Assembly (NCBI GenBank): GCA_024102635.1
Contig: JAGFJO010000046.1
Location: 1-64,000 of the forward strand
Direction: 5' to 3'
Length of the DNA stretch: 64,000 nt
Source: Deltaproteobacteria bacterium
GTDB taxonomy: Bacteria; Bdellovibrionota_C; UBA2361; JAGFJO01
The notes under the pieces were generated by a model. It saw only the letters and a list, made by a program, of their open reading frames with translations, did not search any database and had not been told where the DNA came from. The translations under genes and the position numbers were made by a program. This document shows, piece by piece, positions 6,366 through 20,163 of the stretch. Each line of letters begins with the position of its first letter. Position 1 is the first letter of the stretch.

Positions 6366-7259
6366 ATGAACTTACGTGATCTGGAATACTTAGTGGCGAT
6401 CTCCCGCTTGGGCAGCATGGCGCGTGCCTCAGTCTATTGCAGCGTCAGCCAGTCGACACTCAGTATTCAAATCAAGAAACTGGAGGAAGAGTTAGGAGCG
6501 GCGCTTTTCGAGCGCCGCTCGCGGCGTGTGACGCCGACTCGTACGGGGGCTCGCGTGATAGAGCGCTGCGAAAGAATTCTACATGAGGTGCGCGGAATCA
6601 GGGAGATTGCCAAAAGTGAGAGCGATCCACTATCAGGAGATCTAAGGCTGGGGGCCTTTCCAACTTTGGCTCCATACTGGTTCCCGCGGATTATTCCGTT
6701 GGTGAAGGAACGATTCCCAAAGTTGAGACTTCAGCTGGTCGAGGAGAAGACCGGCCAATTGCTTGAGGGCCTCGCGGCAGGGGCTATTGATTGTGCGGTT
6801 CTGGCAATGCCCGTTGAACAGCGCGGGTTCGAGCATCGGCGCCTATTTGCTGAACCGTTTTACTTGGCAGTGCCGCGAGACCACGCGCTGGCCCGCAAGC
6901 GCGGCGGTAAGGTGGATACCGCTCGGCTTTCAGGTGAGAATCTTCTCTTGCTCGAGGAGGGCCACTGCATGCGCGGTCAGGCCTTGCAGTTCTGTGCCAG
7001 TAGGGGGATCTCAAGCGAGGGGAGTTACATGGCGTCGAGTCTCGAGACGCTGCGCAATATGGTGGCTGCTGGACAAGGGCTCACCCTGATTCCAAAGATT
7101 GCGGCTTCTCCGGCTGCCGCCACAGGCATTAGATATCTTTCGTTTTCGGACAGCCAGCCACGCCGCGAAATAGGACTTTTCTGGAGAACTTCAACTAGCC
7201 GGCGAGAGCTGTTCGTAGGGCTAGCTAAAGCAATGGCCGATCGGCGAATTTACTCTTAG
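6366..7259 (+). CDS. oxyR: LysR-family peroxide sensor OxyR
   Basis: From ATG 6366 the product is 297 residues starting MNLRDLEYLVAISRLGSMARA, the OxyR-type winged-helix N-terminus. The DNA-binding helix region (SQSTLSIQIKKLEEELGAALFER) is followed by the periplasmic-binding-like sensor domain. Within the sensor, LEEGHCMRGQALQFC places two cysteines eight residues apart, matching the redox-active pair of OxyR. This separates it from generic LysR regulators. It is divergent from ahpC-ahpD, its classic targets. A short upstream extension in the same frame is possible but lacks a ribosome site. Confidence 0.92.
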   Translation: MNLRDLEYLVAISRLGSMARASVYCSVSQSTLSIQIKKLEEELGAALFERRSRRVTPTRTGARVIERCERILHEVRGIREIAKSESDPLSGDLRLGAFPTLAPYWFPRIIPLVKERFPKLRLQLVEEKTGQLLEGLAAGAIDCAVLAMPVEQRGFEHRRLFAEPFYLAVPRDHALARKRGGKVDTARLSGENLLLLEEGHCMRGQALQFCASRGISSEGSYMASSLETLRNMVAAGQGLTLIPKIAASPAAATGIRYLSFSDSQPRREIGLFWRTSTSRRELFVGLAKAMADRRIYS

Positions 7260-15470: not shown

Positions 15471-15995
15471 ATGATCGGTACCGCTGGTTTGGGACAGCTT
15501 CTTTATTCGAGCTTGAGCGAGCTTTATGACTCGGAGCGGCGGCTAGTAAGTGTTATCCCGGAAATTCTTCATGTCTTCACTACGCCCGGCCTGCGCGAAG
15601 TTTGCAGCGCCCATCTTGAAATCTGCCGCCATCAGTTGAAGCAGATTGAGCCGGTGATGGAAACGGAATTCGAAAATCACAGCAAAGTCAGAAGTGATGT
15701 CGGCGCCACCCTTGTTTCACAGATGCTGGAGAAAATCTCCGAAAGAAGTCTATTGCCGGCGGTGCGACAGCTGTTGGTCCTTGCATCGTTTCGAAAATTG
15801 ATAGGTTACCAGACCGCATTAAGCGATTCATGCCGCTCGCTTGCCAAAACTATGAGGCTGCCTCGCCTCGCCGGAATCATATCCGAATCCACTGAGCAGA
15901 AGGTGGACCTTGAAAAAACATTAGCATACATCTCGGCCAATGAATTATTATCGCACTGTCCCCGTGCTAGAGGCGTTAGCACGGTTGGCATTTAA
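15471..15995 (+). CDS. DUF892 (YciE/YciF-like) ferritin-like helical protein
   Basis: The protein has 174 residues, all helical by appearance. LSELYDSERRLVSVIPEI near the N-terminus matches the L-x-D-x-Y-D/S-x-E start of YciF-family proteins. HLEICRHQLKQIE and ESTEQKVDLEKTLAYI match later helices. The family is a di-iron-type four-helix bundle linked to stress. Here some usual metal ligands look replaced: the third helix reads FRKLIGYQTALS where an E-H-Y pattern is usual. It may therefore bind metal poorly. It stands alone with its own upstream hairpin. Confidence 0.65.
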   Translation: MIGTAGLGQLLYSSLSELYDSERRLVSVIPEILHVFTTPGLREVCSAHLEICRHQLKQIEPVMETEFENHSKVRSDVGATLVSQMLEKISERSLLPAVRQLLVLASFRKLIGYQTALSDSCRSLAKTMRLPRLAGIISESTEQKVDLEKTLAYISANELLSHCPRARGVSTVGI

Positions 15996-16076: not shown

Positions 16077-16622
16077 ATGAACTCGCACTATCTTGAAGAA
16101 ATAATTTTGGTCCGCCCCGCCTTTGACGATTGGGCGGCTCTAGCCGAATGTCCCGAACGGGGCTGTGAAGGCCTGGGAGCGATGTGCGGGGAGTGCGGCG
16201 ATGCGGTACGGCAATGCGCTGCTGAAGTTTTGCAGTCGGTAAAGACGGGCAAGGTCCTCGATGGCACCTGGTCCAGATACCTCGCGCTTGATAAAGCTTC
16301 CTCGCAAGTGGTAGGTTTTTGCCGTTTCGCTGGTCTGCCGGATGAAAGCGGAGCGGTCGAAATAATGTGTACAACCTTTCCGCGTTTCGAGGGGCTGGGC
16401 TGCGGAACCCTTATGGCAAAAGAATTGATCGCCTTCGCCACATCCTTTAGAAGAATTAAAAAAGTGGTCGCGCATACCGACGAGAACAATGAGGCTGCCT
16501 GCCAAGTATTGAGGCGGTTGGGTTTCGAGAATTGCGGACTACAATCGGACGAAGAAGCTACAGCGAGGCTTCGATGGGAATTCTACTGCAACGGCAGAGA
16601 GCTCATAAGCCCTGAAACTTGA
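16077..16622 (+). CDS. GNAT-family N-acetyltransferase
   Basis: The protein has 181 residues. The acetyl-CoA-binding motif A region reads FEGLGCGTLMAKELIAFA near residue 103. It is followed by KKVVAHTDENNEAACQVLRRLGFENCG, the typical motif B of GNAT enzymes. Residues 25-50 carry four cysteines (CPERGCEGLGAMCGECGDAVRQC), unusual for a GNAT and possibly a metal or redox site. The substrate is unknown. It is a single gene with no clear partner. Confidence 0.75.
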   Translation: MNSHYLEEIILVRPAFDDWAALAECPERGCEGLGAMCGECGDAVRQCAAEVLQSVKTGKVLDGTWSRYLALDKASSQVVGFCRFAGLPDESGAVEIMCTTFPRFEGLGCGTLMAKELIAFATSFRRIKKVVAHTDENNEAACQVLRRLGFENCGLQSDEEATARLRWEFYCNGRELISPET

Positions 16623-16869
16623 TCAACGGCGGGGACAGGCCATTGGCTTAATCTTTTGAGCTATTTATTCACCCTGCCTAAGCGCTTTTCGCATCTCTTG
16701 CTGGTGGTCCTAACGAGTGCCGGGGTAGAGAAATTTATGAATTTTTCGAATCACATGGGCCGGCTGAAGCAATCTCCAGGTTTAAAAGATACGTGAGCAG
16801 TTGCTTCGCACCCCTACTCGCAGGGGACGGTTCATCGCCTTAAGGAAGGTAAACTAGAGTGAGGGTAAG
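16623..16869. other. Intergenic region, nothing definite
   Basis: This 247-base spacer follows the GNAT gene and precedes a small secreted peptide gene. A weak CCCCT/AGGGG pairing occurs around 16812-16828. No gene, promoter or convincing terminator could be supported. A minus-strand frame covering part of it and the next two genes looks like a shadow. Confidence 0.3.
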
Positions 16870-17037
16870 ATGAATCGGAAAAGAGTTATTATCGCGTTGC
16901 TTTTATCCCTATTTACTAATTTCAATGCAACTGTGGACGCGCAGGAGATAGCGCGCTCCCCCGTTGAAGTTATTGAATGCTCTGCGATTGACCGTGCCGG
17001 CTCTACGGCAGCTGGCAGTTCTATTCTGCCTGCATGA
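16870..17037 (+). CDS. Small secreted peptide with signal sequence (55 aa)
   Basis: An ATG at 16870, preceded at good spacing by GAGGG, opens a 55-codon frame. It begins MNRKRVIIALLLSLFTNFNA, a clear signal peptide with basic start, hydrophobic core and an alanine-containing end before VDAQE. The mature part would be about 30 residues (EIARSPVEVIECSAIDRAG and so on) with one cysteine. The stop at 17035-17037 is followed by a 10-bp inverted repeat and then the antiporter gene. Not recognised. It could be a real small exported peptide, or the broken 5' end of a larger exported protein. Confidence 0.5.
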   Translation: MNRKRVIIALLLSLFTNFNATVDAQEIARSPVEVIECSAIDRAGSTAAGSSILPA

Positions 17038-17042
17038 TTGAC

Positions 17043-17073
17043 GCGCCTGAGGAAAAAATCTACCCTCAGGCGC
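17043..17073 (+). promoter_or_regulatory. Perfect 10-bp inverted repeat ending at the nhaD start codon
   Basis: GCGCCTGAGG (17043-17052) and CCTCAGGCGC (17064-17073) pair perfectly around an 11-base A-rich loop. The right arm ends immediately before ATG 17074. The only upstream purine-rich ribosome-site candidate (TGAGG) is buried in the left arm. No T run follows, so translational control or an RNA structure seems as likely as termination of the small upstream gene. Confidence 0.55.
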
Positions 17074-18432
17074 ATGTTACCCAACCCCGAGAGAATTTCG
17101 TCAAAGCACTTATTGAGAGCCTTATTAGCTTTCCTCCCGGCCGCAATCATTTTTTGGCCGGCAGCAGCCTTTGCGGCTGGGCCAAAGGCCGGTTTCGCAG
17201 TCCTCGGTATTCCGCTTGAGTTCATAATCTTCGGATTGACGCTCGCTGGTGTGGCGGTATTTCACCATCACACTCTTCAGGTGGCGCTGACCGGACTAGG
17301 GGTCCTGCTTGCATATAAGCTCGGCTTCACTGATTTCAGCCTCTGGCTTCAGATCCAGCATGAAAAGGTTATTCTTTTGAATCTTCTCGGACTGCTTGTT
17401 GGATTCGCGATCTTGGCTAAGCACTTTGAGAATTCCAACATTCCCGATCTAATGCCTGCTATTCTCCCGGATGATTGGAAGGGGGGCTTCATGTTGCTTT
17501 CGATCGTAATGGTGCTCTCCGCCATGCTGGACAATATAGCAGCGTGTATTATCGGAGGGACCGTAGCTTCTCACGTTTTCAAGCACCGAGTGCATATCGG
17601 ATTTCTTGCGGCAATAGTGGCGGCTTCTAATGCCGGAGGGGCGGGAAGCGTAGTAGGGGACACTACTACTACGATGATGTGGATCGATGGTGTTAGCGCG
17701 CTCGATGTGTTTCACGCTTTTACCGGATCGTTTGCCGCCTTTGCAATCTTCGGGATAATAGCAGCCTTTCAGCAGCATAAGTACCAACCCATCATCGCTG
17801 ACCCCAAGCCTGGTATTAAGATCGATTGGGGGTACCTTTATATTGTGGCTATGATACTGGCCGGGGCGATAATCACCAATGTCACCCTGGATATGCCTGC
17901 TGTGGGGGTGTGGGTGGCCATCCTACTAGGCGCCTTTTTCAGAAAGACCGACTGGCACGAAGTACCGGAGGCTTTTAAGGGAAGCCTGTTCCTACTTTCA
18001 CTGGTTTTCTCGGCATCGATTATGCCGGTCGATGAGCTTCCGATTGCTTCGTGGCAGACAGCATTAGGACTTGGATTCTTATCCTCGGTGTTTGATAATA
18101 TTCCTCTTACCAAGATGGCTTTGGTGCAGGGAGGGTATGATTGGGGAGTTTTGGCCTACACGGTCGGCTTCGGAGGATCAATGGTATGGTTCGGCTCATC
18201 AGCGGGAGTCGCCCTCTCCACAATGTATCCCGATGCCAAATCGGTTCTTGCCTGGGTGAAAAGCGGTTGGCATGTTCCGGTTGCTTATGTCTTCGGGTTT
18301 TTCTTTATGCTTGCCGTGCACGGCTGGGAACCACACGCGCCACATAAGGAGCGCCTAATTAATGGAAATGGACATGCGCAGGTTGAAGCCGTCGTTACCG
18401 GCTCTGAAGACCAAGCACCGGCGCAACATTAG
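17074..18432 (+). CDS. nhaD: NhaD-type Na+/H+ antiporter (ion transporter superfamily)
   Basis: From ATG 17074 the product is 452 residues with about 11-12 membrane segments. The start lies just after the inverted repeat. The N-terminus LLRALLAFLPAAIIFWPAAAFAAGPK looks like a signal/first membrane segment. Two polar motifs inside membrane segments are typical of the family: MLDNIAACIIGGTVASHV and GGAGSVVGDTTTTMMW in the first half, SVFDNIPLTKMAL and GFGGSMVWFGSSAGVA in the second half. The paired discontinuous helices fit the DASS/ArsB/NhaD fold. The substrate is most likely Na+ for H+; a carboxylate or arsenite role cannot be excluded. Soluble C-tail about 35 residues. Confidence 0.8.
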   Translation: MLPNPERISSKHLLRALLAFLPAAIIFWPAAAFAAGPKAGFAVLGIPLEFIIFGLTLAGVAVFHHHTLQVALTGLGVLLAYKLGFTDFSLWLQIQHEKVILLNLLGLLVGFAILAKHFENSNIPDLMPAILPDDWKGGFMLLSIVMVLSAMLDNIAACIIGGTVASHVFKHRVHIGFLAAIVAASNAGGAGSVVGDTTTTMMWIDGVSALDVFHAFTGSFAAFAIFGIIAAFQQHKYQPIIADPKPGIKIDWGYLYIVAMILAGAIITNVTLDMPAVGVWVAILLGAFFRKTDWHEVPEAFKGSLFLLSLVFSASIMPVDELPIASWQTALGLGFLSSVFDNIPLTKMALVQGGYDWGVLAYTVGFGGSMVWFGSSAGVALSTMYPDAKSVLAWVKSGWHVPVAYVFGFFFMLAVHGWEPHAPHKERLINGNGHAQVEAVVTGSEDQAPAQH

Positions 18433-18504
18433 TAGGCCGGCTGTCCTGTGGCGCGCTAATTGATCTTGAGCATGAAGACCCTGTCTATCCGCATGATAAA
18501 GGAG

Positions 18505-18528
18505 AAATCGCTCGCCAGCTCGCGATTT
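18505..18528 (+). terminator. Candidate terminator after nhaD
   Basis: AAATCGC (18505-18511) and GCGATTT (18522-18528) form a 7-bp stem around a 10-base loop and are followed by T-A-G. The A/T-rich closing and short T tract are compatible with intrinsic termination of nhaD, about 75 bases after its stop. Confidence 0.45.
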
Positions 18529-18541
18529 TAGTTGAACCTTT

Positions 18542-18583
18542 ACGTGCTCAACATAAGCTCGCTACGCTCGCTTATCCGCACGT
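18542..18583 (+). repeat. Two-tier inverted repeat in the cysS leader
   Basis: Outer arms ACGTGC (18542-18547) and GCACGT (18578-18583) enclose inner arms ATAAGC (18553-18558) and GCTTAT (18570-18575). The loop TCGCTACGCTC contains a repeated CGCT word. It ends 11 bases before the first ATG of cysS. It resembles in style the palindromic words of the 56.8-57.2 kb block. It may be a leader structure or a dispersed palindromic repeat. Confidence 0.5.
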
Positions 18584-18594
18584 TGCTTTAGGCT

Positions 18595-20163
18595 ATGAGT
18601 GGTTATAGGATTGAGCTTTCTATGGCAGCGAGTGCTTTTCAAGTTAGATCTTCAAGCAAGTACCTCTCCTCCGCGAGGAAGATTCAGATCTACAACAGTC
18701 TAGGCAAGGCGAAGCAACCATTTCTGCCGATCGACAAGAGCGACCCGCCGCGGGTCAAGATGTACGTGTGCGGGCTGACGCCGTATGATTCGGCGCATAT
18801 GGGACACGTTGTTCCGGCGCTTGCTTTCGATCTCGTGCGCAACTATCTGACGTACCGCAACTTGCAGGTAAACTTCGTTCAGAATGTGACCGATATCGAC
18901 GATAAGATTATAGATCGCGTAAGAAAAACCGGCGAAGATCCGCGCGCCCTTACAGAAGGTGTCACTGAGCGGTTTTATGCCGCGCTAAAAGAGATGCGAG
19001 TCGGCACTCCCGATCGCATAGTCAAGGTGTCGGAAACGATGCCTCAGATCGTCAGCTACATAGAGGCGTTGATCAAAAAAGGCTTCGCCTATGCCACTAA
19101 GGACGGCAACGTTTACTTCGACATCGCTAAGAAATCCGATTACGGCAAGCTGTCTAACCAAAAATTGAGCGAGCTTTTAAGCGGAGTGCGCGTCGACAGC
19201 GAAAAAGATAAGCGCCACGCACTTGATTTTGCGCTCTGGAAAAACGATCCCGACTCCACCCTCTCCGTCAACTCGCCATGGGGAGTCGGACGGCCCGGGT
19301 GGCACATCGAGTGCTCGGTGATGATCGATCATACGCTGGGAAGTCCTATCGATATCCACGGAGGAGGGCTCGATTTGAAATTTCCCCATCACGAGAATGA
19401 GATCGCTCAGAGCGAGGCGTACTCAAAAGGGGACTTCGTACGTTACTGGATGCATGTCGGCCTCCTTACGGTTGAGGGCACTAAGATGTCCAAGAGCTTG
19501 GGCAACTTTCTGACTATAGAAGATGCCTATGAGCAGTATGGACCTGAGCTGATTCGGTACATATTCCTCGTGCATCATTACCGTTCCAACGTGAATCTCT
19601 CGGATCAAGCTTTCATCGAGAACCTTAATGGGCTGTGGGATTTCTATCGCACCGTCGAGCTTGTGCGGGCTAGGTTCGGCGCCGGAGATCCGGCCTCAGA
19701 TCACGGCCCCATCGCAGCGCTTAGAAGCAGCTTTGAAAGCGCTATGGATGACGATTTCAATTCACCGGTGGCCATAGTGGCGTTGCGGCAGGCGCTTTCG
19801 GAGCTAAGGAAGCTCCTGACTGCACCGCCGGAAAAGCGGGCGGATTCGGAGATAACATCACTGACTGCCGCTATTGTCGAATATGGCAGGGTATTAGGCC
19901 TTTTTCAGTTTGATTGCGGCGAGGTTTTTAGTCAGATGCTGCGATTCACCGCGAGAATTCTTAAAATTCAGGTTCCGTCGCTAGAGGCAATTGCATCCAT
20001 CCTCAAGGACCGCGAGGATGCCCGCAGCAAGAAGGACTATCAGCGATCAGACAAGCTACGGGACGAGCTGAAAGCGCTCGGCCTTGAGTATATGGATACC
20101 AAGGGGCTGCAACTGAGCCCCGATGAACTGTACTTGAATTTGAGATTTCAGCTAGGGGGATAA
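18595..20163 (+). CDS. cysS: Cysteinyl-tRNA synthetase
   Basis: The protein has 522 residues (from ATG 18595; ATG 18622 is an alternative). It charges tRNA-Cys. The class I signature is MYVCGLTPYDSAHMGHVVP: the first zinc-ligand cysteine and HMGH. KMSKS appears as GTKMSKSLGN. Other zinc ligands fit WHIECSVM and HHENEIAQSEA. A helical C-terminal domain ends SPDELYLNLRFQLGG. About 30 residues precede the usual family start (IQIYNSLGKAKQPF), so the true start could be further downstream. A two-tier hairpin lies directly upstream. Confidence 0.97.
   Translation: MSGYRIELSMAASAFQVRSSSKYLSSARKIQIYNSLGKAKQPFLPIDKSDPPRVKMYVCGLTPYDSAHMGHVVPALAFDLVRNYLTYRNLQVNFVQNVTDIDDKIIDRVRKTGEDPRALTEGVTERFYAALKEMRVGTPDRIVKVSETMPQIVSYIEALIKKGFAYATKDGNVYFDIAKKSDYGKLSNQKLSELLSGVRVDSEKDKRHALDFALWKNDPDSTLSVNSPWGVGRPGWHIECSVMIDHTLGSPIDIHGGGLDLKFPHHENEIAQSEAYSKGDFVRYWMHVGLLTVEGTKMSKSLGNFLTIEDAYEQYGPELIRYIFLVHHYRSNVNLSDQAFIENLNGLWDFYRTVELVRARFGAGDPASDHGPIAALRSSFESAMDDDFNSPVAIVALRQALSELRKLLTAPPEKRADSEITSLTAAIVEYGRVLGLFQFDCGEVFSQMLRFTARILKIQVPSLEAIASILKDREDARSKKDYQRSDKLRDELKALGLEYMDTKGLQLSPDELYLNLRFQLGG

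Follow-up and report, generated by a model that had tools for sequence, protein, structure and literature searches.

The question raised by this locus is whether translation of a small open reading frame (ORF) governs the synthesis of the NhaD-like antiporter that is encoded directly downstream of it. In the window, that is the whole stretch of 64,000 nucleotides that was analysed, the small ORF and the nhaD-like gene are read in the same frame, are separated by one TGA and have a hairpin between them (Table 1). We propose, with a probability of about 40%, that the two genes are a lineage-specific example of translational coupling, a known kind of arrangement. This is the most likely of the readings considered; an accidental arrangement comes next, and a start of the antiporter gene at TTG 17038, reached by re-initiation, third. 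The sequence elements, their distances, the predicted RNA energies and the missing Shine-Dalgarno sequence of the antiporter gene are results of the analysis; that both genes are transcribed into one RNA, that the small ORF is translated, that ATG 17074 is the true start of the nhaD-like gene and that coupling takes place is inferred.

Table 1. Features of the region between the small ORF and the nhaD-like gene (positions in the window)
Feature	Positions	Strand	Remarks
Shine-Dalgarno-like GAGG	16861..16864	+	5 nt 5' of the small-ORF ATG; 4-nt match to the Shine-Dalgarno core within a spacing of 4-9
Small ORF	16870..17037	+	55 aa; ATG start, TGA stop; same frame as the nhaD-like gene
TGA stop of small ORF	17035..17037	+	in-frame TTG 17038 directly 3' of it
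Hairpin left arm, GCGCCTGAGG	17043..17052	+	perfect 10-bp inverted repeat
Hairpin right arm, CCTCAGGCGC	17064..17073	+	ends directly before the nhaD-like ATG 17074
nhaD-like antiporter gene	17074..18432	+	452 aa from ATG 17074; 464 aa from TTG 17038

The small ORF and its product

The product of the small ORF, MNRKRVIIALLLSLFTNFNATVDAQEIARSPVEVIECSAIDRAGSTAAGSSILPA, has a signal-like N-terminus (MNRKR-VIIALLLSLF-TNFNATVDA/QE), judged by charge and hydropathy only, in which the putative signal peptide comprises about residues 1-24 and leaves a remainder of 31 residues. An earlier note on this DNA had spoken of a secreted peptide of 55 residues with a strong ribosome site; the ORF has this length and the GAGG in front of it was found, and secretion is predicted to the extent that charge and hydropathy allow. 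Of the 309 ORFs in the window that begin with ATG and have 40-80 codons (nested ATGs counted apart), only the small ORF passed the signal test, a simple one that was designed with this ORF already known. A Shine-Dalgarno-like match precedes 31 of these 309, and signal and match occur together only in the small ORF.

Codon usage of the small ORF is intermediate and indecisive. At 0.037 per codon it is equalled or surpassed by 21 of 166 spurious ORFs, and of 305 fragments of called genes 62 score no higher. Split into halves, the ORF gives 0.093 for the first and −0.019 for the second, which looks non-coding by this measure. The small ORF is a candidate gene for a probable secreted peptide.

Conservation, which the earlier note had named as a check on the peptide, does not speak for it: no homolog was found in phylum genomes, viral contigs, plasmids, loci or family databases. 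A tblastn search against 81 loci gave nothing convincing among the best 40 matches listed, the best of which (E 0.084) is on the minus strand and far from nhaD. With E values up to 5 allowed, ten of the 45 genomes of the phylum give a match, the only real one being that at the peptide's own locus; the next best has an E of 0.11, and the matches in 9 of the 44 other genomes were judged to be due to chance. The same was concluded for the matches in two plasmid records (best E 2), and the peptide matched nothing in viral contigs, PHROGs, Pfam or NCBIfam.

The hairpin at the antiporter start

The earlier note was correct in placing a perfect 10-bp inverted repeat behind the stop of the small ORF, 5 nt past it, and in letting the right arm touch the ATG of the antiporter gene. 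The loop has 11 nt, and the predicted stem is lengthened by pairing of 17039-17042 with 17076-17079, around the start codon. The local RNA fold is −21.3 kcal/mol for 43 nt (z −6.3), with a z of −4.8 for 66 nt, both stretches having been chosen around the hairpin. The claim that the right arm hides a purine-rich ribosome site of nhaD had to be given up. The purine-rich stretch is made up of the left arm and the loop, with GAGG 17049-17052 in the left arm and an A-run in the loop; this GAGG is 21 nt away from ATG 17074, too far to be the ribosome site of the nhaD-like gene.

The window contains 2 perfect repeats of 10 bp or longer whose loop is 3-20, as compared with 0-3 (mean 1.75) in 12 first-order Markov sequences, so that a 10-bp repeat by itself is expected and needs no explanation. 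The only other perfect 10-bp repeat in the window with a loop in this range is located at 6496-6520 and has a loop of 5. What stands out, judged after the fact, is not the repeat but its placement: the chance that one of 55 starts has the end of such a repeat at most 5 nt in front of it is, when calculated post hoc, about 1% (55 × 6 / 64,000 × 1.75).

Three other origins or roles of the paired sequences were considered and rejected. Descent from a repeat family was one of them, the inverted repeat being single-copy in the window and in the whole assembly and the DNA 16623-17073 having elsewhere in the genome only ten short matches, all with E 0.8 or worse. The second was an intrinsic terminator or attenuator, since the right arm is followed by ATGTTACC and thus not by a U-run; the hairpin is also absent from a terminator scan of 16300-18700, which admitted loops of 8 at most. 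Two terminator-like stems were found in 16300-18700 versus a shuffle mean of 2.9, which puts the stem inside the end of the small ORF (16995-17017) within shuffle expectation. The third was a pairing of the Shine-Dalgarno region 16860-16867 with 17061-17068 (8 bp), which by arithmetic is about what chance gives and is not in the minimum-energy fold.

The nhaD-like gene and its relatives

The antiporter matches TIGR00775 (NhaD) with E 3.2e-16 and a score of 59.1 (curated cut-off 577.1) and NF038006 with E 3e-10 and a score of 39.7 (curated cut-off 80). Both scores are far below the cut-offs, and the protein is therefore called only NhaD-like. No Pfam family matched it, even at E up to 10; the homolog in locus L005 is likewise without a Pfam match, which suggests that Pfam has a gap in its coverage of this antiporter branch.

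Of the loci with related genes, 554 were found and the 80 best kept, with proteins 57-67% identical to the NhaD-like protein; they come from Bacteroidota, Pseudomonadota, Gemmatimonadota and unnamed metagenome-assembled genomes. Among the 45 genomes of the phylum only the window's own contains the protein at E 1e-20 or better, and one further relative shows a partial match of 29% (E 1.1e-7). In a tree of 85 rows the NhaD-like protein joins on a long branch (0.98) a group whose 56 rows all carry the label Pseudomonadota, with 99/92 support. The gene was likely acquired by transfer. When 12 genes of the window were compared with 19 loci of relatives (11 of them cysS loci whose flanks reach about 1.5 kb at most, plus 8 others), only cysS was matched.

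Judged by eye, the nhaD-like gene seems to be directly preceded by a gene for a universal stress protein at 8 of the 80 places scored (L011, L020, L055, L059, L068, L075, L077 and L078, of which L020 and L059 match PF00582). Two nhaD-like genes are found close together in L005, L007, L048 and L063.

For comparison of the starts, 84 nhaD-like places in the 80 loci were used; a simple rule assigned a start to 80 of them and left 4 without one. A perfect stem of at least 8 bp (loops 3-20) ending at most 15 nt from the start was present at none of these 80 homologous starts, and stems of 7 bp ending 10-14 nt before the start at three homologous places (L007, L025 and L082). Since neither a homolog of the peptide nor a comparable hairpin at the 80 starts was found, neither is a general feature of nhaD-like genes. 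From the literature searched on nhaD leader peptides, sodium riboswitches and antiporter upstream ORFs no nhaD leader of this kind is known to us.

Which start codon

No Shine-Dalgarno-like match of at least 4 nt is located 4-9 nt upstream of ATG 17074. The nhaD-like gene could instead start at TTG 17038, where a ribosome terminating at the TGA would re-initiate directly; the hairpin would then lie inside the first dozen codons and not hide the start, and the basic stretch MTRLRKKSTLRR would be added to the N-terminus. The frame is indeed open from 17038, the TTG adjoins the TGA, and short gaps favour coupling according to PMC12548453. The TTG is, however, also without a Shine-Dalgarno sequence. 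The leader before the conserved part would have 54 residues from TTG 17038 and 42 from ATG 17074. At the 17 homologous places whose start has a Shine-Dalgarno match of at least 5 nt, leaders of 34-45 residues are found in 11, of 58-66 in 5 and of 18 in 1. The leader of 54 is inside this spread (18 to 66) but outside the class of 34-45, and that of 42 fits this commonest class, which is compatible with ATG 17074 without deciding against TTG 17038; the N-termini of the homologs differ among themselves. The codon score of the 11 codons at 17041-17073 is negative (−0.150) and thus speaks against translation from the TTG, although the signal region 17077-17190 likewise scores below zero (−0.089). 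We regard the upstream start as improbable, and in what follows ATG 17074 is taken as the start.

Proposed translational coupling

Under the coupling proposal the small ORF and the nhaD-like gene would form a two-gene translation unit. By itself the start of the nhaD-like gene, without a Shine-Dalgarno sequence and at the foot of a GC-rich hairpin, would be poorly accessible. A ribosome that has entered at the good ribosome site of the small ORF would arrive at TGA 17035, where its leading edge would reach roughly five bases into the left arm and weaken the hairpin. ATG 17074, 36 nt downstream, would then become usable either for the same ribosome, which re-initiates, or for another one. Output of the antiporter would track translation of the small ORF; a sensing function is not part of the proposal.

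The arrangement is that of coupling: a co-oriented upstream ORF ends at 17037 close to a structure (17043-17073) that holds ATG 17074. Opening of about −20 to +14 around this ATG was calculated to cost 20.7 kcal/mol in the local context, the third highest value for the 55 ATG starts of the window (from uncurated ORF calls; median 10.9), and 21.5 kcal/mol in the leader context. When the RNA from 17015 was kept unpaired up to 17044, 17047 or 17049 by the modelled ribosome, the cost decreased to 16.0, 8.4 and 6.0 kcal/mol, respectively; with coverage only to 17041 it was 20.8, the effect being almost nil. The lengths of the ribosome footprint used in the modelling are general knowledge. The predicted drop is what the unfolding model of coupling requires. 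The suggestion of the earlier note that translation of the small gene could open the hairpin is partly supported, by the geometry, by the predicted decrease from about 21 to about 8 kcal/mol and by the missing Shine-Dalgarno sequence, but it finds no comparative support, and the reason given for it, a purine-rich ribosome site hidden by the right arm, was wrong in detail.

Several examples of coupling via unfolding of a structure at the downstream start, with spacings from −50 to +52 nt, are described in the review PMC12548453. In E. coli rpmI-rplT, phage f1 VII-IX and MS2 coat-lysis, as treated there, the upstream ORF ends before or in the structure of the next start, as it does here, and the spacing of +52 nt in rpmI-rplT (PMC12548453) is of the same order as the +36 nt of our locus. 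These three pairs have been studied experimentally, whereas our locus has an orphan as its upstream ORF and no Shine-Dalgarno sequence at the downstream start. The review also states that coupling declines with distance and that in one library structure just past the upstream stop correlated negatively with coupling (PMC12548453), a result that speaks against efficient coupling at this locus. For re-initiation, 36 nt is a long distance, which counts against coupling. So do the lack of conservation of peptide and hairpin, the chance level of the repeat and the codon usage of the small ORF, which as said is indecisive. A promoter scan of 16300-17731 yielded no promoter-like site that passed, which likewise counts against it.

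Some of these points at the same time favour ordinary neighbours. The small ORF would then be an orphan, either the relic of a truncated gene for a secreted protein or a chance ORF, the hairpin would be a chance repeat, and nhaD would be weakly expressed or be translated from a leaderless or near-leaderless transcript of its own. The number of repeats at chance level, the peptide without a relative in the 44 other genomes of the phylum, in viral contigs, in plasmids and among the best 40 matches listed for the 81 loci, the unconserved arrangement and the weak codon signal of the small ORF all agree with this. A start without a Shine-Dalgarno sequence is also nothing special in the window, where such a sequence precedes the longest possible start of 15 of 52 genes, a start that is not necessarily the real one. 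That genes in the same orientation, a Shine-Dalgarno sequence and a signal-like N-terminus in the first of them and a strong hairpin exactly at the start of the second should come together from unrelated parts is unlikely, however, even though this is a post hoc argument. We consider the accidental arrangement doubtful, and less probable than coupling.

Unlikely alternatives: ion-responsive RNA, operator and read-through

The hairpin could act without the small ORF, which would be incidental, either as an RNA that responds to ions or pH (a riboswitch or RNA thermometer) or as a DNA operator. Riboswitches for Na+ (Na+-I, with DUF1646) and Li+ (with nhaA-I and nhaA-II) are leader RNAs that control genes of sodium or lithium transporters, as reported in PMC9337991 and PMC9646797, and the local fold in front of nhaD is strong. 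Unlike in these systems, no covariance-model match to a Na+ or Li+ riboswitch was obtained here: cmscan of 16200-18700 against Rfam to E 10 returned two weak, unrelated matches, both inside nhaD, and the two riboswitches were rejected at the level of the Rfam models. The RNA has an A-rich loop on a plain stem of 10 bp and no evident aptamer. As to an operator, the arms are 21 bp apart from centre to centre, equal to two helical turns; none of three neighbouring proteins that were scanned with Pfam (GNAT, DUF892 and CysS) is a DNA-binding regulator. The gene for the DUF892 protein (PF05974) is located at 15471-15995. We regard a responsive RNA or an operator as very unlikely.

A fusion of the peptide to NhaD by read-through of the TGA, by selenocysteine insertion or suppression and with the hairpin as insertion element, would make use of the shared frame and of the position of the hairpin 5 nt after the TGA. 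One match to the tRNA-Sec model is just over the cut-off (47.5 versus 47 bits), but it reads as tRNA-Ser, and ARAGORN identifies all seven matches as tRNAs for Ser (3), Leu (2), Gln and Phe. Such matches are also found in 14 of 14 control genomes, in 5 of them over the cut-off. No match to SelB exceeds the cut-off (best 158.7 versus 242.25) in the assembly, which is 94% complete, so that a missing SelB or tRNA-Sec could fall into an assembly gap. A relative of the peptide upstream of homologous genes was not seen among the best 40 matches listed. Selenocysteine read-through is disfavoured on these grounds, and we give read-through of either type hardly any credence.

Arrest peptides and other leader peptides

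The signal-like N-terminus leads to a further reading, in which the peptide regulates as a nascent chain in the manner of SecM and VemP. It would stall near its C-terminus when export or an ion gradient fails, the ribosome would be held on the left arm and nhaD would be switched on. The stretch of 31 residues that follows the putative cleavage point is approximately as long as the ribosomal tunnel. The C-terminal end SSILPA contains no RAPP-like or SecM-like motif, the target gene is neither a sec gene nor yidC, and there is no Shine-Dalgarno sequence to hide.

For monitoring substrates (SecM, VemP, MifM and relatives) PMC10987492 gives four search criteria. The gene downstream should be a sec or yidC gene and is NhaD-like; the N-terminus should carry a secretion signal or transmembrane segment, which the rough test by charge and hydropathy indicates; the C-terminus should be conserved, and no homologs were found; and the spacer should exceed 30 residues and is borderline here, at 31 if the signal ends at residue 24, the conserved end being missing. 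Because of the other target and the lack of a conserved C-terminus the locus cannot be filed in the SecM/VemP class as delimited there, though its layout could work alike. SecM-secA and VemP-secDF2, as described in PMC10987492 and PMC7897499, resemble our locus in layout, a small protein that is exported (at our locus by prediction) being encoded ahead of a hairpin at the start of the next gene; they differ from it in that here there are no arrest motif and no homologs, the target gene is another one and the hairpin is without a Shine-Dalgarno sequence. Regulation by arrest is about as improbable as a responsive RNA or operator, and slightly less credible still is the specific case that the 55-residue peptide is a nascent-chain sensor through which export or the membrane ion gradient sets the synthesis of the NhaD-like antiporter.

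A small ORF before the gene of a cation transporter is also known from Mg2+ transport. The peptides of mgtL and corL, which work through transcription termination, are not known to be exported, unlike the predicted exported peptide of our locus. The likeness is in the order of the genes, mgtL preceding mgtA and corL preceding corA (PMC11552253).

Significance

As it stands, the locus is an isolated case, has no known relatives and leaves the general picture unchanged. Wide interest attaches only to the sensor reading, which, if true, would mean a switch in the style of SecM and VemP that serves ion homeostasis instead of the Sec machinery. If the preferred reading, translational coupling, is real, it would account for the translation of a gene that has no ribosome site, and it would add an antiporter to the cation transporters that are expressed via a small upstream ORF.
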